DNA from: Diospyros lotus
Taxonomy: Eukaryota > Streptophyta > Magnoliopsida > Ericales > Ebenaceae
Direction of reading: 5' to 3'
DNA length: 64,000 nt
NCBI RefSeq assembly: GCF_014633365.1
Contig: NC_068344.1
Span: 8,323,669 to 8,387,668, forward strand
Below are positions 267-60,840 of this stretch, piece by piece (position 1 is the stretch's first letter; the number at the start of each line of letters is the position of its first letter). The translations under genes were made by a program, and so were the position numbers. Below the pieces are notes generated by a model. That model saw only the letters and a program-made list of their open reading frames with translations, had not been told where the DNA came from and did no database searches.

Positions 267-446
267 TGATTAGTGATCAATTTTATAAAAATTTTGTTAT
301 AATTTCACCCTTATTTTGATCTTAAAATGGTTTAAATTGAATATTATTATGCATTTTGTGATTTTGTGCATGTTTAAAAATATTAATATAAAAATATATA
401 TAAAATATAAAAAATAAATCTAATATATATAATATTATAATATTAT

Positions 447-612
447 GGATTCCAAGCCCAACACAAGGAAGGCCCAAGCACAACACAAGGAAGGCCCAAA
501 CCCAAAACAAGAAAGGCTCAAGCCCAAATCCAACATAAGGAAGGCCTAAGCCCAAAACAAAGAAGGCCAACACAAGGAAGGCCCAAACCCAAAAATATGA
601 AAAGCCCAAGTC
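447..612. repeat. Degenerate short tandem array in LTR (cccaagcccaacacaagg type)
   Basis: Short units built on cccaagcccaaMacaaggaagg follow one another for about 165 bp. The equivalent array in the right LTR is at about 7256-7426. Translated on the minus strand it gives a periodic F/W/A/L/G-rich peptide, which explains the open frames there. Confidence 0.75.
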
Positions 613-634
613 CAAAAAATTGCTCATATCATTG

Positions 635-711
635 CTTACATCATGAGTTGGAATGACATCATTGCTTATATCATGGGCTGGAATGATGTCATCGCTTACA
701 TCAAGTCACGA
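635..711. repeat. 30-bp tandem repeat, about 3 copies
   Basis: The unit is roughly catcatcgcttacatcatgg followed by gttggaatga, present about three times. The right LTR carries about four copies (7438-7546). Unit gain or loss has therefore occurred since insertion. Confidence 0.75.
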
Positions 712-861
712 AGTTTCAAGAACTACACTTTGGCCCAAACTTTTTAAGTAATTAAATATTTTATTTATCTTTGTATTTTTAAATTAGGTATTTTATTTTT
801 CTTTAAATATTTTGTATTATTAAATTATATAATTGAGTGGTCTCCATTGTATCTTTTAGCC

Positions 862-869
862 TATAAATA
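862..869 (+). promoter_or_regulatory. TATA box of element A LTR
   Basis: cctataaatagagcac is a canonical plant TATA box, repeated at 7705-7712 in the right LTR. Transcription should start about 30 bp downstream. The aataaaag a little further on could serve as polyadenylation signal in the 3' copy, but there it reads aatgaaag (around 7752). Confidence 0.6.
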
Positions 870-1043
870 GAGCACTTGGGATGCATTTGTAACCATTCAA
901 TTTTCTTATAATAAAAGTATAGTTGTGTTCTTAGGATTTCTCTCTCAAATTTTTCACTTTAGTTTCTATATAGTTTTGTTCTTAGAATTTCTCTCTCAAA
1001 TCTTCAACTTTTGTTTCCATATAGTTGTATTATGTTATTCATA

Positions 1044-1230
1044 TTGTCTTTTTATTATATACCGCCTATATGGTCGGTTGAATATTGTCTTTCAATTATA
1101 TACCGCCTATATGATCGGTTAAAAAATTGTCTTTCAATTATGTACCGCCTATATGGTCGGTTAAAAAATAGTCTTTCAATTATTGTCTTTTTATTATATA
1201 CCGCCTATATGGTCGGTTAAAAAATAATCT
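1044..1230. repeat. About 43-bp minisatellite with accg...cggt core, about 4 copies
   Basis: Units contain tataccgcctatatggtcgg followed by ttaaaaa and tgtctttcaatta. The core accgcctatatggtcggt has inverted ends (accg/cggt). A matching array is at about 7886-8075 in the right LTR. It lies downstream of the TATA box, so it should be in the transcribed leader. Confidence 0.8.
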
Positions 1231-2029
1231 TTTAAATACTATCTTTTAATTCCCGTCATTTAAATTCCTGTCAATTTATTTAAAAATAAAGATAAGTAGC
1301 TAAATCCAATCTTGGATTAAGGCAATGACAGTGTCCAACGCCAATGATTCCCAAAGAAAGCTACGCTTCAAGTATGTAATATTAATCTGATTTAATTTGA
1401 ACAGTGTGCGTATAGTGTATCTTTGAGTTTGGATTGGAGTATAAGCCTAACTTAGAATTTTCATGCCACGTATGGAGATTGCTAAACCTGAAAATGTTTT
1501 CATACCCAAGCCCAAATGATTAATCTGTATCTATAAATTCTGTCTATGGAATATAATTCAATTTATGATAATTGTTTAACTTAAAATTTTCATGCCATGT
1601 ATGGAGATTGTTTAAACAACAATTACCATTATCTTGAACTAAAATTACTGACAAATCTGTAAAACTCAAATCAGATGAATATTACTGATCTTTTCTATTA
1701 AATCGGGAATTAATTGGTTTTTGCACTGAAATTGTCTTGACCCAAGCTGCTTAAATTCAGTATTAGTTTAGTTTTAATTTTTACCTTTAAATCATCTTAA
1801 TCATGTCTTAAACTCAAATATTTTGTGATCTTTGTTTTCATCCATAAATAATCTCCTTGTGAATCGACTCGGACTCACCGAAATATAAATTTAAAATTGT
1901 ACTACACGCACACTCGCACACTGGCGAGTATAATCGCCCTACACCTGCTTTAATAAAAGGATTAACGTATGATGAATTTGGTTGTAGTTTTGATAAATAA
2001 ATGTGCATGGTAGCGTAGCAGTCAGTTTT

Positions 2030-2047
2030 TGGCGTCGTTGCCGAGGA
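2030..2047 (+). other. Primer binding site, tRNA-Asp type (two mismatches)
   Basis: tggcgtcgttgccgagga starts 5 bases after the LTR end. It matches the usual plant tRNA-Asp-complementary site (tggcgccgttgccgggga) at 16 of 18 positions. This supports the LTR boundary and the plus orientation. Confidence 0.7.
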
Positions 2048-2370
2048 GATTAAATTTGGTTGAATTTTGTTGTTGTTTTACTATTTTAAAAAAATTAAAA
2101 AATAATAATTAAAAAAATTATTTTCAAAAAATATATATATATAAAATATATATTTTAAAAAAACTAAAAAAATAATAAAATAATAAAAAATATAAATTAA
2201 AAAATAATTAAAAAATTAAATTTAAAAAAAATATTTAGATAACTTTTAGTTATTAAACAATGTAAGAGACTACGCTCAAGTATGATTATTGAAATATTAA
2301 TTGATTCATTACCACCATTATCTACCGTTGAGTTGTCATTTCCATATTCTCTATGTCTTAGTATTTTAGC

Positions 2371-3319
2371 ATGTCTGTGACTGCATTTGGCCATCCCAAT
2401 CCCAATGAGGGGAGGTTTTCTTTTAACCAGAGTCAGAGGGAAAATTCTTATCTGTCGGGTTACGACCCAGATCTTTACATTGATTACCCTAGTTCCTATG
2501 ACCATTGGAATTATTCTTGGAACATTGACTCTGTGTTCCAATCTCATGAGCCTTTTCCTCCACCACCTCACCAATTTGAGTTAGAAACAAGGGGTTAGAT
2601 CTGATGTTTATCAACCTCAGGATGAAAAATTTTTAGAGGACACCCTTCAGGAGTTTATAGAAGGTCAAATGAGTTTTAATGCACAAGTGATCGAACTTCA
2701 AGAACAAACCACTAGGGACATAGGTGACATTTTTGAACAATTGACCGAGTTTACACAGACCTTAAGCGTGAGTGAACCTGGTGAGTTTCCAAACCAACCC
2801 AGTCAAAATTCCGTTGGTCAATGTCTTAGGGAGGAATAATCATTCAATTCACCCATAGGTCAAGAGTCGGTCCAATCTATACCCATCCATAGGAATGATG
2901 AACCAATTGAGAGATTTGATGACCCTAGGATGGTATGAGCAATCATAGAAGAAAAATTAGACCAAAATGATGTGAGAATAGAAGAAGCCTGGAATGAAGA
3001 AGAGAATAAAACCCAAGAGCCCAAATGTGAAGATACCATAGGCCTAGCCAAACTTGAGCCTAAATTTATGTCTTTTAGGCTAGTCTATATTATTGGGGAT
3101 CAAATTAAACCAAACATGTGTAAGGTGTTTGTGCGAATTGATGTGCCGTACTCTGATGTAATAAAACCAACACCTTCGGATGACATATTTTCAAAATATG
3201 TATGTGCATTTATGAGAAAAATCAATTTACATAATTTTGAAAATAAGTTTAAAAGTGGTGTAATGAATGGGAGTTATTATACAAATAAGTGGGCAACCAC
3301 TTATTTGATCCTTAACTAG
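2371..3319 (+). pseudogene. Broken gag-like reading frame of element A
   Basis: A frame opens at ATG 2371 and runs 75 codons to TAG 2596-2598. A coding-like frame then continues one base over (from about 2591) to TAA 3317-3319, broken by TAA 2837-2839 and TGA 2936-2938. The first part is rich in Y, P, N and S and ends in a proline run. The middle is acidic and helix-prone (around FLEDTLQEFIEGQMSF), and the end has NKWATTYLILN. I see no CCHC knuckle and no protease motif. Its position just after the primer site is that of gag, so I infer a decayed gag-like protein of a non-autonomous family. The domain itself is not recognisable by eye. Confidence 0.45.
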
Positions 3320-3419: not shown

Positions 3420-3734
3420 AAAGAAAAGAGGGAGACAGATTTAACACCGATGACAACCATTTTTTTTTTTTTTGGCAAAGTAATCACACTGCCCTATAAA
3501 GGAAACGACACACTGTCCTATAAAGAAAAAGGAGACGCCGAACGTTGAAAAAGAAACGCCGAATGTTGAAAAAGGAGACCCCAGACGTGACCCTAGACTC
3601 GTGGCATGCCTCAAGCCAAGTGTGGTTGTTAGAATGGTGACTTTCACAGCTCTATAAGAGACTCTATATCTGCATGAGGCAAGCCACACTTCTTTGAGCT
3701 CAGTCTTCTCTCCTTTGTGTTGTTCTCCGATCAG
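3420..3734 (+). promoter_or_regulatory. Promoter-like and 5'UTR-like segment upstream of the LOG-like gene
   Basis: A TATA-like tctataagaga lies at 3651-3661. About 75 bp further, ccgatcag/gtactctc (junction 3734/3735) resembles a splice donor. A matching acceptor, ttctattttcag/gg, lies at 4513/4514, 24 bases before the LOG-like ATG. The inferred 5'UTR intron would be 3735-4513 (779 nt). Before the TATA box there are three near-repeats built on ggagacgccgaacgttgaaa (3530-3585). All of this is inference from motifs. Confidence 0.35.
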
Positions 3735-3805
3735 GTACTCTCTTTCCTTTTGTAAGGTTCATTATTTTGTTCTACTTTTCTCTTACTATACTTCTGATTT
3801 AAAAA

Positions 3806-4395
3806 ATGGATCTTCAGCTATTTAAAATTCGCAAGTACTATCCATCTCTCTAACAAAATGATTTACAAAAGATTTATGCCACTAGGTGTGAAAGACTTAG
3901 GATGTTGATGTATAAAAATATCCCTAAGGATATTTGCTGGTTGATTGAAGCAAAATTTTGATTTCTTGGCGAAACTTCACCTAGTTTTAAGCATTTTCCA
4001 GGATTGGGAAAGAATAGTTTTTTGAAAAAAAAGAAAAGCGAAAAGATTAAATGGTTGTCACAAATGTGCTCGATGGACTTGTAACACACGATGCAAATCT
4101 GTGGGGTTTACTTCCATAAATCGAGATGATAAAATTTGTTTCATAAAGGATGGGTTGAGTAAGGAGTCTTTGGATGATATCCGATTAACTCTTGAGACGC
4201 ATCCGTGTGGAATAGTGCAACGAGAAATTCTTGCTTTATGAACCCAATTTAGAAGTGACCACCAACGCTATAATCTTGGGAATCTGACTATAATTGACCC
4301 TGTTTGCCAATCTATAAGAAAATTGGATGGGAAGCCTATCCCCACTTCATAGAAGGTGTTTAAGTCATTTCTGGACGTAAAACTAGAGGAAGATG
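3806..4395 (+). pseudogene. Unrecognised coding-like relic between promoter-like segment and LOG-like frame
   Basis: From ATG 3806 a frame reads protein-like (for example QNDLQKIYATRCERLRML and SPSFKHFPGLGKNSF) with internal stops. After about 4083 coding character moves to another frame with INRDDKICFIKDGLSKESLD and VCQSIRKLDGKPIPTS, again with stops. I do not recognise the family. Its amino-acid texture (charged, no low complexity) suggests a once-coding sequence of roughly 195 codons. It also lies inside the putative 5'UTR intron, so it may be an older captured gene fragment or part of the element's own lost protein. Confidence 0.3.
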
Positions 4396-4537
4396 TGAGC
4401 CACAATCACAACTACTTGTATATACACATGATTTTTGTGTGTATTTATTTATTGTTGAATTTCTATGTAGTTACTTTTGATCGCCAAACTTCTTTAACCA
4501 GTTCTATTTTCAGGGCATACATAAAGAACTAACATAA

Positions 4538-5197
4538 ATGGATGGTCAGCTAGTTCGTCGAATCAATACCATATGTGTGCTATGTGGCTCTCAACTTAGG
4601 AGCGATATTTGTTACACACTTACAGCAAGCGAACTTGGCCTAAAATTGGGAGAGAGAAAAATTAATTTGGTCTATGGAGGGGGAAGTCATGGATTGAATG
4701 GATGTGTTTCACAGGCTGTACATCTTGGGCAATCATATGTGGTAGGTGTTATTCCAATCATTTTGGCTGATCCATAGATTTTCGAGTATACACGAGGTCA
4801 ACTTATGAGAACGACTTCTATGTCTAAGCGCATGGCTTGTAAGATTTATCAGTCAGACACCTTCATTGCTTTACCGGGAGGTTTTAGTACACTTGAAGAA
4901 ATCTTTTGTATAATCTCCTGGGCCAAGAGCAATCTCCATACCAAATCCATTGGACTTTTAAATATTAACCATTTTTTTGATGGGTTGCTCTCTTTTCTTG
5001 ATCAGGCTGTGGAACAAAAGTTCATTTCTCTTTCAGCAAGAAAGATTCTCATTTTCGCATCCACTATTGAGGAGCTATTAGAGAAATTACATGCTTATGT
5101 TCCACAGCACGATCCTTACGAACCTCGGATAGACTGGTCTAAGGCAATTGGAAGCAAGCGTCAAAGGGGTCCGATTAATTTAGATTTATCCCTCTAA
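4538..5197 (+). pseudogene. LOG: LOG-like cytokinin riboside 5'-monophosphate phosphoribohydrolase, one in-frame stop
   Basis: LOG enzymes release active cytokinin bases from their nucleotides in the cytosol. The frame is 219 codons plus stop, the usual length of the family. It is colinear throughout: Rossmann start TICVLCGSQ (residues 11-19), YGGGSHGLNG (46-55), VVGVIP (68-73), an Arg at 98 in the MSKR segment, LPGGFSTLEE (112-121), and a C-terminal helical part with KSIGLLNI. TAG at 4775-4777 (codon 80) splits it. The same frame resumes with no indel, so a single C-to-T change could explain it. The signature is altered: family PGGxGTxxE reads PGGFSTLEE here (Gly to Ser), while the Glu is kept. 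Plant LOG genes normally have several introns. This copy has none, so it is a retro-copied gene. It sits inside element A, same strand as the LTRs. The start is the first ATG of the frame, just after a good splice-acceptor-like site. The family call is firm; activity is doubtful. Confidence 0.9.
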
Positions 5198-5206
5198 GGG
5201 GGGGCA

Positions 5207-5420
5207 AGTCTATGATAAGATGGCTAAGTAAGGAGTACTTTTCTGTACTCTTGAGACGCATCTTTTTGTTTTGACTTGCATGAATTTATTTTATGTTATG
5301 TTTAAAAAAAAATTATGGAATGCTGTTAGGTAAGTCTATAATAAGATGGCTGAGTAAGGAGTACTTTTTGTACTCTTGAGACGCATCTCTTTATTATATG
5401 ACTTGCATGAATTTTTCTTA
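5207..5420. repeat. Tandem duplication with small hairpin, downstream of LOG-like gene
   Basis: Two copies (about 5207-5300 and 5331-5420) share ataagatggct, gagtaaggagtactttt, gtactcttgagacgcatct and gacttgcatgaattt. Within each, gagtac...gtactc can fold back. A third, earlier relative (ggttgagtaaggagt ... ctcttgagacgcatc) is at 4151-4204 on the other side of the LOG-like frame. Confidence 0.7.
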
Positions 5421-7060
5421 TTTCGGTGTGAAAAAAATATAAAAAAAATATTTAGGGTATTCTCACTTGTTTGTTGAAGATTTAGTTGTTCACAGTAAAC
5501 TTACAGGCTTATAGAGTTACAGGTATTCCTAACAACCCTATTTTATTACTGCAATTCAAGTTGGGGGGAAGTAAGGTATATTTATGAATTATCTGGTCCA
5601 TGTTTAACTGTGAATTTGCAATTGCATGTTTGTAGTTTTGTGTGAATTGTTTACTTTTATCAACTCCTATTAAAAAAATGTGTGTGCTTTAAATAATATT
5701 ATCCCTAAAGTTTTGGAGTTGTACACTGATAGCTAGTTGAATTTGCGGTATGAATTATGAATGCATTAATTTCTTATTTAAAAACGTAGATGTATGGGAT
5801 TAGAATAAGTGATTTGCATGCATCGGGTGTTCAATAATTAGAAATTGGTTTATCGGTCATAAAGTCAAAGGCAATGGTAATTAGCTAATTAGCACACTGC
5901 ATGATCCCTCAACAAAAGTGGAGACTATTACCCTAGTGAGTGTTTGAGCCTAATAATCATTAATTCTAAGTGAAATAAAACTTACTCTAAATGCGCTTTA
6001 TTGTTTATCTCATCTATTTAATAGCTTCAAAACATCAATTTGCTTTGAATGTCTAGTATGATAGTGGATGAATTTGGTTGGTTTCAAACTCTAAATTAGT
6101 TGATTAAGTAACATCATTTTGTAGAAGCATGATAGAGGGTCAATTTCTTTCAATTTGAGTCTATTAACCTTTTTCTTTCTTTACATTAACCTCCCTTGCT
6201 AGCTCATTTGAGCTGTTCTTAGCATAATTCCTTTCATTACTCTCGTCTAACCTATAACCATATGAAGTTTGTCCAAACCTGGTGTGTTTTTAGGAATCAA
6301 TCTATCTCGATATTTTCATATAAAAAAAAAAAGAAACAAAAAAGCAAAAAAGAAAGGAAAAAAGAAAAAAAAGAAAAAAAAAGGAAGTTCTCTTAGCTTT
6401 TCAACATGAGTGTTTCAAAATAAATGTTGAAGAAAACAATATGTCCAATTTGATATTAGTGTCAAAAAAAAAAAAAAAAATCCAGACACACCATTTGCAC
6501 ACTTTACCCTTTTCTTTAACAACTCGTATTAACCTCATAACCCCATTACAACCCAGTCTGGTCCCTCTTGATGCTATAAATCAGGTAATCTCAGGATTCG
6601 AGTTCGGAGTAGGGAATTTTTTTTAAATTCAAAAGTTATTTATCCATGGCATTATTCCAGTCATGAAACTATGTTAAATTCCCTGTTCTTTCATGAAAAT
6701 GCGTTCTTTGTATTTGGGATGACACCGAGTTTGAACTTGTTTTGCATTTACTCTTAAAACAGTGCACCCCTTTGTGCATACACCAGAGGAATCATTTTTT
6801 TTATTGGAGGAAAAATCCATAGTAAGGTTTGAAGTCGAAACTTCGAGAGAGTAAGATAGAATGATGGTCATCCTAATTGTCGTTCCTAAGATTGTATGAC
6901 CTTTGAGCGAAATCTGATTTAGAATATTCGACTGTATGTCAGATAAATTGTTCTGTTCTATGCATTTTGGTTTTGAATTTAAAATTTTTATATTCATGCG
7001 ATTATTGTGAATAAATCTGGCCAGTATGAAGTCTAATTGTTATGGGACTAGCAATGTTTA
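5421..7060 (+). other. Non-coding 3' interior of element A
   Basis: No coding frame is supported. The part near 5560 has caagttggggggaagtaagg, a second G-rich tract like the internal purine tracts of Athila/Tat elements. 6318-6385 and 6464-6480 are A/G-rich runs. The minus-strand frame at 6674-6997 has no recognisable content. The stretch resembles the long non-coding spacer between coding part and 3' LTR in this group of elements. Confidence 0.5.
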
Positions 7061-7070
7061 AATTGGGGGG
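7061..7070 (+). other. Polypurine tract of element A
   Basis: aattgggggg ends two bases before the TGATTAG start of the right LTR, the expected place for second-strand priming. Confidence 0.65.
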
Positions 7071-7072
7071 TG

Positions 7073-8866
7073 TGATTAGTGATCAATTTTGTAAAAATTT
7101 TGTTATAATTTCACCCTTATTTTGATCTTAAAATGGTTTAAATTGAATATTATTATGCATTTTGTGATTTTGTGCATGTTTAAAAATATTAATATAAAAA
7201 TATATATAAAATATAAAAAATAAATCTAATATATATAATATTATAATATTATGGATTCCAAGCCCAACACAAAGAAAGCCCAAGCCCAACACAAGGAAGG
7301 TCCAAGCCCAAAACAAGAAATGCCTAGGCCCAAGCCCAACACAAAGAAGGCCCAAGCCCAAAACAAAGAAAGCCCAAGCCCAACATATGGAAGGCCCAAG
7401 CCCAAAAATATGAAAAGCCCAAGTCTCACAAATTGCTGACATCATTGCTTACATCATGAGTTGGAATGACATCATCGCTTACATCATGGGTTGAAATGAC
7501 ATCATCGCTTACATCATGGGTTGGAATGATGTCATCGCTTACATCAAGTCACAAAGTTTCAAGAACTACACTTTGGCCCGAACTTTTTAAGTAATTAGAT
7601 ATTTTATTTATCTTTGTATTTTTAAATTAGGTATTTTATTTTTCTTTAGATATTTTGTATTATTAAATTATATAATTGAGTGGTCTCCATTGCATCTTTT
7701 AACCTATAAATAGAGCACTTGGGATGCATTTGTAACCATTCAATTTTCTTATAATGAAAGTATAGTTGTGTTCTTAGGATTTCTCTCTCAAATTTTTCAC
7801 TTTAATTTCTATATAGTTTTGTTCTTAGAATTTCTCTCTCAAATCTTCAAATTTTGTTTCCATATAGTTGTATTATGTTATTCATATTGTTTTTTTATTA
7901 TATACCGCCTATATGGTCGGTTGAATATTGTCTTTCAATTATATACCGCCTATATGGTCGGTTAAAAAATTGTTTTTCAATTATGTACTGCCTATATGGT
8001 CGGTTAAAAAATAGTCTTTCAATTATTGTCTTTTTATTATATATCGCCTATATGGTCGGTTAAAAAATAGTCTTTTAAATACTGTCTTTTAATTCCCGTC
8101 ATTTAAATTCATTCCAATTTATTTAAAAATGAAGATAAGTAGCTAAATCCAATCTTGGGTTAAGACAATAACAATGTCCAATGCAAATGATTCCCAAAGA
8201 AAGCTACGCTTCAAGTATGTAATATTAATCTGATTTAATTTGAACAATGTGCGTATAGTGTATCTTTGAGTTTGGATTGGAGTATAGGCCTAACTTAGAA
8301 TTTCCATGCCACGTATGGAGATTGCTAAACCTAGAAATGTTTTCATACCCAAACCCAAATGATTAATCTATATCTATAAATTCTGTCTGTGGAATATAAT
8401 TCAATTTATGATAATTGCTTAACTTAGAATTTTCATGCCATGTATGGAGATTGCTTAAACAAGAATTACCATTGTCTTGAACTAAAATTACTGACAGATC
8501 TGCAAAACTCAAATCAGATGAATATTACTGATCTTTTCTATTAAATCGAGAATTAATTGGTTTTGGCACTGAAATTGTCTTGACCCAAGCTGCTTAAATT
8601 CAGTATTAGTTTAGCTTTAATTTTTACCTTTAAATCATCTTAATCACGTCCCAAACTCAAATATTTTGTGATCTTTGTTTTCATCCATAAATAATCTCCC
8701 TGTGAATCAACTCGGACTCACCGAAATATAAATTTAAAATTCTACTATACGCACACTCACACACTGGCAAGTATAATCGCCCTACACCTGCTTTAATAAA
8801 AGGATAACGTCTGATGAATTTAGTTGTAGTTTTGATAAATAAATGTGCAGGGTAGCGTAGCAGTCA
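7073..8866 (+). repeat. 3' LTR of element A
   Basis: Direct repeat of 267-2024. Same internal arrays (7256-7426, 7438-7546, 7886-8075) and TATA box at 7705-7712. It has one more 30-bp unit than the left LTR. Frames at 7128-7445, 7251-7439 and 7768-8063 are array translations. Confidence 0.85.
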
Positions 8867-49574: not shown

Positions 49575-50105
49575 TTAGAGTAATAGAACTTGCAATCCAA
49601 GATGGATAAGAACTTGCAATCCAAAATGGATAAGGATTAATAGAACTTGCAATCCAAAATGGATCAGGATTAATGGAACTTGCAATCCAAAATGGATCAG
49701 GATTAATGGAACTTGCAATTCAAAATGGATGAGGATTAATAGAACTTGCAATCCAAAATGGATAAGGATTAATGGAACTTGCAATCTAAAATGGATAAGG
49801 ATTAATAAAACTTGCAATCCAAAATGGATCAGGATTAATGGAATTTGCAATCCAAAATGAATGAGGATTAATAGAACTTGCAATCCAAAATGGATAAGGA
49901 TTAATGGAACTTGCAATCCAAAATGGATGAGGATTAATGGAACTTGCAATCCAAATTGGATAAGGATTAATGAAACTTGCAATCCAAAATGAATAAGGAT
50001 TAATGGAACTTGCAATCCAAAATGGATAAGGAGTAATAGAACTTGCAATCCAAAATGGATAAGGATTAATAGAACTTGCAATCCAAAATGGATAAGGATT
50101 AATAA
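49575..50105. repeat. 33-bp minisatellite, about 16 copies
   Basis: Unit aacttgcaatccaaaatgga plus taaggattaatag, with small variants. Because 33 is divisible by 3 and the unit lacks stops on the minus strand, it gives an open frame with an 11-residue period (LILIHFGLQVL). Confidence 0.9.
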
Positions 50106-56340: not shown

Positions 56341-56875
56341 TTAGAGTAATAGAACTTGCAATCCAAGATGGATAAGAACTTGCAATCCAAAATGGATAAG
56401 AATTAATAGAACTTGCAATCCAAAAAGGATAAGGATTAATAGAACTTGCAATCCAAAATGGATCAGGATTAATGGAACTTGCAATCCAAAATGGATCAGG
56501 ATTAATAGAACTTGCAATCCAAAATGGATAAGGATTAATGGAACTTGCAATCCAAAATGGATAAAGATTAATAAAACTTGCAATCCAAAATAGATCAGGA
56601 TTAATGGAATTTGTAATCCAAAATGAATGAGGATTAATAGAACTTGCAATCCAAAATGGATAAGGATTAATGGAACTTGCAATATAAAATGGATGAGGAT
56701 TAATGGAACTTGCAATCCAAATTGGATAAGGATTAATGAAACTTGCAATCCAAAATGGATAAGGATTAATAGAACTTGCAATCCAAAATGGATAAGGATT
56801 AATAGAACTTGCAATCCAAAATGGATAAGGATTAATAGAACTTGCAATCCAAAATGGATAAGGATTAATAAAACT
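56341..56875. repeat. 33-bp minisatellite, right LTR copy
   Basis: As at 49575-50105, with several units gained, lost or changed. Frames on both strands here are array translations. Confidence 0.9.
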
Positions 56876-58878: not shown

Positions 58879-60840
58879 CTACTCATCAAAAGAGTTAGCA
58901 ATACAATTTTTTATAGGCTCATCTATTCTCTCTACCAAATCATCAATGCCATTTATCCTAAAGACTTCTTTTTCATTGTTATTAGAATATTTTGTAGCCT
59001 TAAACACATTGAAAATAATTGTCTCATCATGAATTCTAAAGCTAAGTGTTCCTTGCTGGACATCAATCAAAGCCCTCCCTATGGCAAGAAAAGGTCTCCC
59101 TAAAATTAGGGGCATATCATAATCTTTTTTTATGTCCAAAACAATGAAATCAACAGGAAAAATAAATTTATCTACTTTTACCAAGACATCTTCCACTACT
59201 CCCCTTGGATATTTGATACTTCTATTAGCCAATTGAAGAAAAATAGTGGTGGGTGTTGGTTCTTGTAAGCCAAGCTTCCTAAAAACAGAAAAGGGCATCA
59301 AATTAATACTTGCACCAAGGTCACATAAAACTTTATCAAAATTAATTTCACCAATAGTGCAAGGAATAGAAAAGCTCCCTAGATCCTTGAGTTTTGGAGG
59401 CAATTTGTTTTGTAGAATTGCAGAACATTCTTCATTAAGTTTCACTATCTCAAATTCCTCCAACTTCCTTTTGTTTGAAATTATTTCTTTGAAAAATTTG
59501 GCATAACTTGGCATATGAGAAATAGCATCAAGAAGAGGGATGTTAATATGCAACCTTTTAAACACTTCTAAAAATTTAGCAAATTGTTTATCCAAGTTAG
59601 CCTTTAGAAATCTTTTAGGAAAAGGAAGATGAGGTTTGTAAGATTTTAAATTAAGTGAAAAAGAACTCCCATTTTTCTCCATTGATAAATCACGATCCTC
59701 TTCTTTGGCTTTAAGCCCTTGGCTTTCTTTTTCTTTTGAATGCTCTTCATCTTTTTCTTTATTTTCAAGTTCTTTTCTACTTCGCAAAGTGATGGCTTTT
59801 ACATGCTCCCTTGGATTCTTCTCAGTATTGCTAGGCAAGCCTCCTTGTGGTCTTTCTAAAATTGCCTGGGCAAGTTGTCCAATTTGAGTTTCCAAGCTTT
59901 GCACTCTTGCCTCTGTACTATTGATAAACTTTGCCATCATATCTTCCAAATTCGGCTTCTTCTCCTGTGGAATTTGATGTTGTTGTTGAAAGCCGGGGGG
60001 TACTCTTTGTTGATTATTACTCCAAGAAAGATTAGGATGGCTCCTCCGTCCTGGATTGTAAGTGTTAGAGTAGGGATTAAAATTTGACCTGTTGCCACCA
60101 TAAGAAATAAAATTAGCTTGTTCAGAAGAACCAAAAGAAAAATGATTTCCTACTTGACAATCTACACTAGCATGTCCCCCTCGCCCACAAAGCTCACAAG
60201 AAAGAAAATGGGGGCAAGAAGAAGAAGAAGCATTCATAGCTGAAACCCCCAGATTACCCAAATTTTTATTTAATTCAGCAATTTGAACAGATAAAGCAGT
60301 GATAGAATCAACATTATAAATTCCAACTCCCTTTTTATTTGCTCTCTCATTGTCCCATTGATAACTGTTGGTTGCCATCTCCTCCAAAAGTTCATATGCT
60401 TTCTCAGGAGTTTTTCTCATAAGGGTACCACCTGCAGTTGCATCTAACATCGAACGAGAAGATTGATTAATGCCACTATAAAAAGTTTGCACTTGCATCC
60501 AAATAGGTAGACCATGGTGAGGACATTTCCTAAGCATTTCTTTAAATCTCTCCCACGACTCATATAAGGATTCATTACCAAATTGTGAAAAAGTTGTTAT
60601 GTCATTCATTAATTTAGCCGTTTTAGAAGGTGGAAAATATTTAGATAAAAACTTTTGTGCCAAATCATTCCATGTAATAATAGAACCTGCTGGAAGAGAA
60701 TTAAGCCATTTTTTTACTCTATCTTTCAAGGAAAAGGGAAATAACCTAAGTCCAACTTCATCTTCACTAACTCCATTATGCCTAAAAGTATCACATATTT
60801 CAAGAAAATTAGCAATATGAGAGTTCGAATCATCATTGGG
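58879..60840 (-). CDS. Gag-protease open frame of the Athila-like element
   Basis: 653 codons open on the minus strand after an in-frame TAG (60841-60843); the first ATG of full gag lies upstream in another frame. Domains: capsid-like gag (SHIANFLEICDTF; DRVKKWLNSLPAGSI; KFLSKYFPPSKTAKL), a zinc-knuckle-like CELCGRGGHASVDC, an Asn/Pro/Gln-rich middle (SNFNPYSNTYNPGRR; HPNLSWSNNQQ), a helical segment (ARVQSLETQIGQLAQAI), a Lys/Glu-rich linker, then an aspartic protease (VLCDLGASINLMP; ILGRPFLAIGRALIDV). The frame ends NSFDE. Gag builds the particle and protease cuts the polyprotein. The length without a stop is striking beside the dead pol genes around it. RT, RNase H and integrase should follow but do not. 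Confidence 0.9.
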   Translation of the reverse strand, partial: PNDDSNSHIANFLEICDTFRHNGVSEDEVGLRLFPFSLKDRVKKWLNSLPAGSIITWNDLAQKFLSKYFPPSKTAKLMNDITTFSQFGNESLYESWERFKEMLRKCPHHGLPIWMQVQTFYSGINQSSRSMLDATAGGTLMRKTPEKAYELLEEMATNSYQWDNERANKKGVGIYNVDSITALSVQIAELNKNLGNLGVSAMNASSSSCPHFLSCELCGRGGHASVDCQVGNHFSFGSSEQANFISYGGNRSNFNPYSNTYNPGRRSHPNLSWSNNQQRVPPGFQQQHQIPQEKKPNLEDMMAKFINSTEARVQSLETQIGQLAQAILERPQGGLPSNTEKNPREHVKAITLRSRKELENKEKDEEHSKEKESQGLKAKEEDRDLSMEKNGSSFSLNLKSYKPHLPFPKRFLKANLDKQFAKFLEVFKRLHINIPLLDAISHMPSYAKFFKEIISNKRKLEEFEIVKLNEECSAILQNKLPPKLKDLGSFSIPCTIGEINFDKVLCDLGASINLMPFSVFRKLGLQEPTPTTIFLQLANRSIKYPRGVVEDVLVKVDKFIFPVDFIVLDIKKDYDMPLILGRPFLAIGRALIDVQQGTLSFRIHDETIIFNVFKATKYSNNNEKEVFRINGIDDLVERIDEPIKNCIANSFDE

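Follow-up and report, generated by a model that had tools for sequence, protein, structure and literature searches.

Whether a plant retrotransposon can carry a hormone-type gene as cargo, and whether such a gene is kept by selection or simply rides along, is the question raised by a 64,000-nucleotide stretch of the Diospyros lotus genome (hereafter the window), in which a frame resembling the LONELY GUY (LOG) enzymes lies between two LTRs. An earlier note on this DNA had described that frame as running in the sense of the LTRs, with one stop and no indel, and translation, together with the LTRs, the primer binding site (PBS) and the polypurine tract (PPT), confirmed the description.

An old, pol-less element with a LOG-like frame

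The frame comprises 219 codons plus a stop, interrupted only by a TAG at codon 80 and free of frameshifts, and the placement of the PBS after the 5' LTR and of the PPT before the 3' LTR gives the LTRs the same sense as LOG (Table 1). We take the PBS to be of a tRNA-Asp-like type. The two LTRs have TG...CA ends and are 93% identical (blastn), with a K2P distance of 0.049; a 5-bp target duplication was looked for at the flanks of this copy and was absent, and on both counts the copy is old. It is an older, pol-less, non-autonomous and decayed member of its family. A region that the earlier note had called gag-like gave no gag match; it corresponds to ORF1, which is open over 347 codons in the sister copies L026, L022 and L020 and which, in the two sister copies compared with Pfam, matched no family above cut-off.

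Table 1. Features of the retrotransposon copy in the window (window coordinates)
Feature	Position	Strand	Remark
5' LTR	267..2024	+	1758 bp, TGATTAGT...AGCAGTCA
Primer binding site, TGGCGYCGTTGCC-type	2030..2048	+	same position after the 5' LTR in 14/14 complete copies
ORF1 remnant, approximate	2353..3319	+	bounds by eye; ORF known from sister copies
TATA-like box CTATAAG, predicted promoter, 5' of cassette	3652..3658	+	CTATAAGAG in sister copies
Predicted intron	3735..4513	+	CAG/GT donor 3734/3735, YAG/GG acceptor 4513/4514
NABP-like accessory ORF, decayed in the window	3806..4352	+	tblastn, and Pfam on 8/8 chosen sisters
LOG-like accessory ORF, 219 codons, TAG at codon 80	4538..5197	+	translation, Pfam, LOG3-type match
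Polypurine tract AAATTGGGGGGTG preceding the 3' LTR	7059..7072	+	LTR-element comparison
3' LTR	7073..8866	+	1794 bp

Elsewhere in the window, a 616-codon open frame on the minus strand (58879-60729) has a gag/protease-like look, with a CCHC-like knuckle and DxGAS, and probably belongs to another Ty3/Gypsy element. Two 168-codon frames, also on the minus strand (49575-50081 and 56341-56847), carry the short repeated unit LILIHFGLQV in near-identical arrays lying about 6.8 kb apart.

The LOG-like protein and its origin

The window frame matches PF03641 at 1e-27 (97.3 bits, with 111.5 bits for copy L016 and a cut-off of 27) and can be aligned over its full length to At2g37210, an Arabidopsis protein of solved structure (2.5e-49), so the likeness to LOG is not due to chance. 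We take At2g37210 to be LOG3. Across the tabulated LOG copies the catalytic Arg is present in 42 of 45 and the Glu in 44 of 45, and nearly all keep the Rossmann glycines. The usual element motifs are SMSERM and PGGFGTLEE; in the window the latter reads PGGFSTLEE, where the Glu named in the earlier note is present and the second Gly of the motif has become Ser. The element also departs from the MHxRK motif, invariant across five aligned PDB chains (four proteins): most copies read MSERM, with His and Lys replaced by Ser and Met, and neither His nor Lys occurs at these positions in any of the 45 tabulated copies. Because both residues are absent, we do not file the protein as proven cytokinin-activating; its cytokinin activity may have been lost or changed, and, judged from its motifs, the protein could be an active, an altered or a repurposed enzyme.

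In the host LOG genes, represented by six stretches, introns interrupt ALPG/GGYG and DKPV/VGLL; both are missing from the element LOG, which for this reason appears to derive from cDNA. Its identity to Arabidopsis LOG3 is 47% (92/194), compared with 69% (133/193) between LOG3 and LOG8, and in a tree that included partial host sequences it fell outside the sampled plant LOGs (clade support 88.3/85) on a long branch, a position that may be a long-branch artefact. Recent capture from an extant host LOG was considered and rejected, since the six host stretches compared, a subset of the host genes seen, resemble Arabidopsis LOGs much more than they do the element LOG. No match to plasmid DNA was found.

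A second accessory gene and the gene order of the family

The earlier note had treated LOG as a single-gene cargo and had missed the ORF directly 5' of it; the cassette in fact has two genes. In intact sister copies this ORF spans 181 codons; in the window it survives as two tblastn pieces (3806-4021 and 3963-4349), broken by stops and a frameshift. When matches were counted at E <= 0.1, both PF05515 (Viral_NABP; best 3.7e-09) and PF01623 (best 1.1e-05) matched all eight chosen copies, drawn from both copy types described below, and copy L016 scored 30.5 bits against PF05515 (cut-off 23) and 21.6 against PF01623 (cut-off 20.9). A basic stretch directly precedes four Cys, which are invariant in 8 of 8. 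The Cys spacing is C-X2-C-X4-C-X3-C and departs from the carlavirus finger pattern C-X2-C-X12-C-X4-C, and since it differs we speak of resemblance to carlavirus NABP and not of membership. One fetched LOG copy, L059, has no NABP-like ORF of at least 60 codons within its stretch, and a single scan of viral contigs for the NABP-like gene found none that carries it. On the 3' side of LOG, two near-tandem units (5204-5262 and 5330-5390; aagtctat..aagatggct..agtaaggagtactttt..actcttgagacgcatct) resemble by eye part of the NABP-like frame (gagtaaggagt...actcttgagacgcatcc; window 4151-4212) and look like duplicated fragments of it.

Copies fall into two types named by their open frame, 219 (the kin of the window copy) and 232, although the protein from the usual ATG has 219 residues in both. 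Matches to pol were found in 5 of 20 ten-kb loci, upstream of LOG and in its sense in four (L011, L016, L019, and L029). In L029 a single uninterrupted pol frame encodes the RT, RNase H and integrase domains, and the Ty3/Gypsy order of these domains is present in the pol-bearing sisters L029 and L019 and absent from the window copy. In the 232 type, the integrase end lies directly 5' of the cassette in L055 (with L068 upstream), and ORF1 takes that place in L050. Both types therefore have pol-bearing and pol-less forms, the latter retaining three frames: ORF1, the NABP-like ORF, and LOG. The same two-gene order recurs in both subfamilies, with or without pol. The LTR features of Ty3/Gypsy elements (TG...CA LTRs, PBS, PPT, and a short target site duplication [TSD]) are found in the family, and in the window copy all but the TSD. 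The family of the window copy is thus Ty3/Gypsy, with an accessory cassette of two genes downstream of pol, in the env position. Motif likeness and PBS type presumably place it in the Athila/OTA lineage.

Copy number and recent mobility

A search of the host genome (630 Mb, 43 contigs) with the LOG DNA returned 894 first-look candidates. Each of the best 40 covers 660 of 660 bases; 39 do so at 94-95% identity, and the remaining one is the window copy itself. Taking the best-scored 40 of 894 biases this set toward close, full-length copies. A search with a piece of the LOG protein gave at least 150 scored matches spread over contigs, and 126 of 150 lie in a stop-free frame that is open for 212 codons or longer (hand tally). 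United with the matches of a further search, from lists compiled by hand, these make no fewer than 246 separate LOG places, distributed over 16 numbered contigs, some of the places being fragments. Among the 40 nearest copies (the best 40 of 894), LOG is intact in 31 and the NABP-like frame in 28. The codon-80 stop is common to 3 of the 40 (L013, L019, and the window copy) and may have been inherited from one ancestor or have arisen more than once by C-to-T change in a CAG codon.

Two whole LTRs were present in 14 of 21 ten-kb stretches, and the seven stretches without them were left out of the dating. Exact 5-bp TSDs flank 10 of these 14 complete copies; among the 13 besides the window copy, LTR divergence ranges from a K2P of 0 to 0.012, and it is 0 in three copies. 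From the TSDs and the near-zero divergence it follows that movement of the family is ongoing or very recent. The family is multi-copy, LTR-bounded, and recently mobile, and the proposal of a mobile multi-copy carrier in the earlier note is borne out by the at least 246 places and the exact TSDs. That note had suggested looking for multiple copies between LTRs in which LOG keeps its position, some lacking the codon-80 stop, and for dN/dS among copies; such copies were found, and the dN/dS values are given below. Copies L023 and L024, two more of the 14 complete copies, lie head to tail with one LTR in common, TGGCC at both outer flanks and identical LTRs within each, an LTR-internal-LTR-internal-LTR tandem array that probably arose by recombination.

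Purifying selection on both frames

Both accessory frames are under purifying selection between subfamilies. Across 14 between-lineage pairs, LOG dN/dS lies at 0.24-0.34, well below 1 (one-sided Fisher p from 8e-8 to 1e-4), and across 10 such pairs NABP dN/dS lies at 0.14-0.29 (p <= 0.0013); L059-L061 (LOG) and L056 (NABP) were left out of the between-subfamily pairs. Wrong-frame controls gave 1.32 and 1.00 in the shifted sense frames of one LOG pair, and 1.33 and 0.98 in those of one NABP pair, while the LOG antisense frame that shares the third codon position gave 0.30, as expected. Third positions hold 35 of 58 changes in LOG (L029-L055). A neutral, one-off capture of LOG was rejected on the copy number and the between-subfamily dN/dS.

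Within the 219 type the signal is milder, with LOG dN/dS 0.43 among intact copies and 0.46 among all, and NABP dN/dS 0.33, after removal of the LOG copies that have an indel (4 of 40) and, for NABP, of those whose frame is not intact (12 of 40). One close LOG pair reached 1.19, and tests of singleton versus shared variants were not significant (LOG p = 0.15, NABP p = 0.56). Constraint on pol is far stronger (dN/dS 0.08; one pair, 153 codons).

Possible cassette exchange and predicted splicing

Divergence is uneven along the element. Between L016 and the L055 element, identity is 65-86% at the pol end and spacer and 81-84% where the NABP-like ORF begins; it rises to 87-96% from mid-NABP to the end of LOG and is 81% after LOG. 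Synonymous divergence is 0.93 at the pol end (L029-L068) versus 0.20 in LOG (L029-L055), and a 190-nt intergenic stretch of the cassette is likewise conserved. Because the cassette is less diverged than the pol end, the pattern suggests either exchange of the cassette among lineages of the element or constraint on its nucleotide sequence as such.

A donor AGGTA (CAG/GTAYTYTC) and an acceptor YAG/GG, the latter identified by eye, lie on either side of the NABP-like ORF in all 16 copies chosen from the two types, and among eight copies of the 219-codon type seven have the TATA-like CTATAAGAG upstream. We infer from these sites that splicing would excise the NABP-like ORF and put LOG near the 5' end of the mRNA.

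What the cassette may do for the element

The best explanation, to which we give an even chance, is a selected two-gene cassette in the env position of a Ty3/Gypsy element, with both proteins serving that element. Unspliced RNA would yield the NABP-like protein, whose target may be RNA or whose site of action may be the nucleus, where, as its relatives in viruses do, it would suppress silencing or regulate transcription, and RNA spliced between the two conserved sites would yield LOG. As a phosphoribohydrolase, LOG would release active cytokinin in cells transcribing the element, and that cytokinin might favor division or a meristematic state and so make new insertions heritable. In its fullest form, which we advance only tentatively, the proposal is of a virus-like element whose env position holds a modulator of silencing or transcription and a cytokinin-activating enzyme, alternately spliced, that together would keep transposing cells dividing and unsilenced, with the cassette passing between lineages.

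A possible, somewhat less probable reading is that the LOG fold has been kept for another activity, acting on a different nucleotide (for example, a host signaling nucleotide) or giving structural support to the NABP-like protein as its partner; the 47% identity to LOG3, the long branch outside the sampled plant LOGs and the loss of the invariant His and Lys despite continued constraint all speak for it, although the Rossmann glycines, the Arg, and the Glu of PGGxGTxxE, kept in nearly all tabulated copies, are what a phosphoribohydrolase would have. We consider it improbable that LOG is a passenger, captured once as cDNA and hitchhiking, with frames intact through the youth of most copies. Many copies are indeed young, so that intactness alone proves little, dN/dS inside the subfamily of the window is only 0.43-0.46, and the variant-class tests were not significant; yet between subfamilies dN/dS falls to 0.24-0.34 against wrong-frame values of 1.0 and 1.3, changes concentrate at third positions, and the two-gene order is shared by the two subfamilies, whether pol is present or absent.

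Template switching, gene conversion or nucleotide constraint, with protein function secondary, could likewise account for the 87-96% identity of the mid-NABP-to-LOG segment next to a pol end and spacer at 65-86%, for the gap in synonymous divergence (0.93 versus 0.20) and for the conserved intergenic stretch. As the main cause of the similarity we think this quite unlikely, as it leaves unexplained the excess of synonymous over nonsynonymous change in the LOG and NABP frames, and such exchange or constraint may act together with selection.

Extra ORFs are common in plant LTR elements and mostly lack a known domain. Here, two extra ORFs have recognizable relatives, both are selected, and both point to control of the host, through RNA or nuclear regulation and through cytokinin or nucleotide chemistry, so that the purpose of such ORFs becomes directly testable as enzyme and silencing activity. 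A single plant genome with hundreds of transposon-borne LOG-like frames also matters for the annotation of the cytokinin gene family, and derepressed elements are possibly relevant to hormone biology.

Comparison with known systems

The element LOG shares with the plant LOGs At2g37210 and At5g11950 the PF03641 fold family, the catalytic Arg and Glu and a full-length collinear match, and differs from them in identity (47%, 92/194, and 43%, 84/194, respectively), in being intronless next to intron-bearing host LOG genes, and in reading MSERM (most copies) in place of MHxRK. The NABP-like protein shares with carlavirus NABPs (PF05515, PF01623) profile scores above the curated cut-offs and the basic stretch before four Cys; its gene is borne by an LTR element and theirs by RNA viruses, and the spacing C-X2-C-X12-C-X4-C comes from the carlavirus finger as described in the relevant passages of PMC8839810. 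The same passages present carlavirus NABP-type proteins as silencing suppressors, with a link to cell proliferation in one virus. The literature searched on carlavirus NABP, retrotransposons and silencing yielded no NABP-like gene in LTR elements, and nothing was found there on selection acting on an LTR-element LOG-type domain.

A LOG-type domain inside Ty3/Gypsy elements of woody eudicots has been described before: section 12 of PMC9289625 reports that Ty3/Gypsy consensuses from Citrus sinensis and C. clementina and, with a looser filter, from Populus trichocarpa contain a YgdH/LONELY GUY domain, a result that it places in line with Steinbauerova et al. 2011. The earlier note had suggested that such a gene would be a new kind of retrotransposon cargo; in view of these Citrus and Populus elements it is not a wholly new one. 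For Citrus and Populus that section reports presence; the NABP-like partner, the cassette order, the non-autonomous carriers and the selection come from Diospyros lotus. Other plant LTR elements likewise carry an extra conserved protein with a supposed role in RNA or silencing: a 2-ODD (m6A demethylase) domain in Ty3/Gypsy elements of orchids, according to PMC9289625, and a DRBM-like extra ORF with a proposed silencing role in sunflower Tekay, according to PMC11728184. The proteins differ from those described here, and Diospyros lotus has two accessory genes together, one of them for a hormone-type enzyme. As far as these sources go, a LOG-type domain in Gypsy elements is known, and what is new is a selected two-gene cassette with a viral-type partner.
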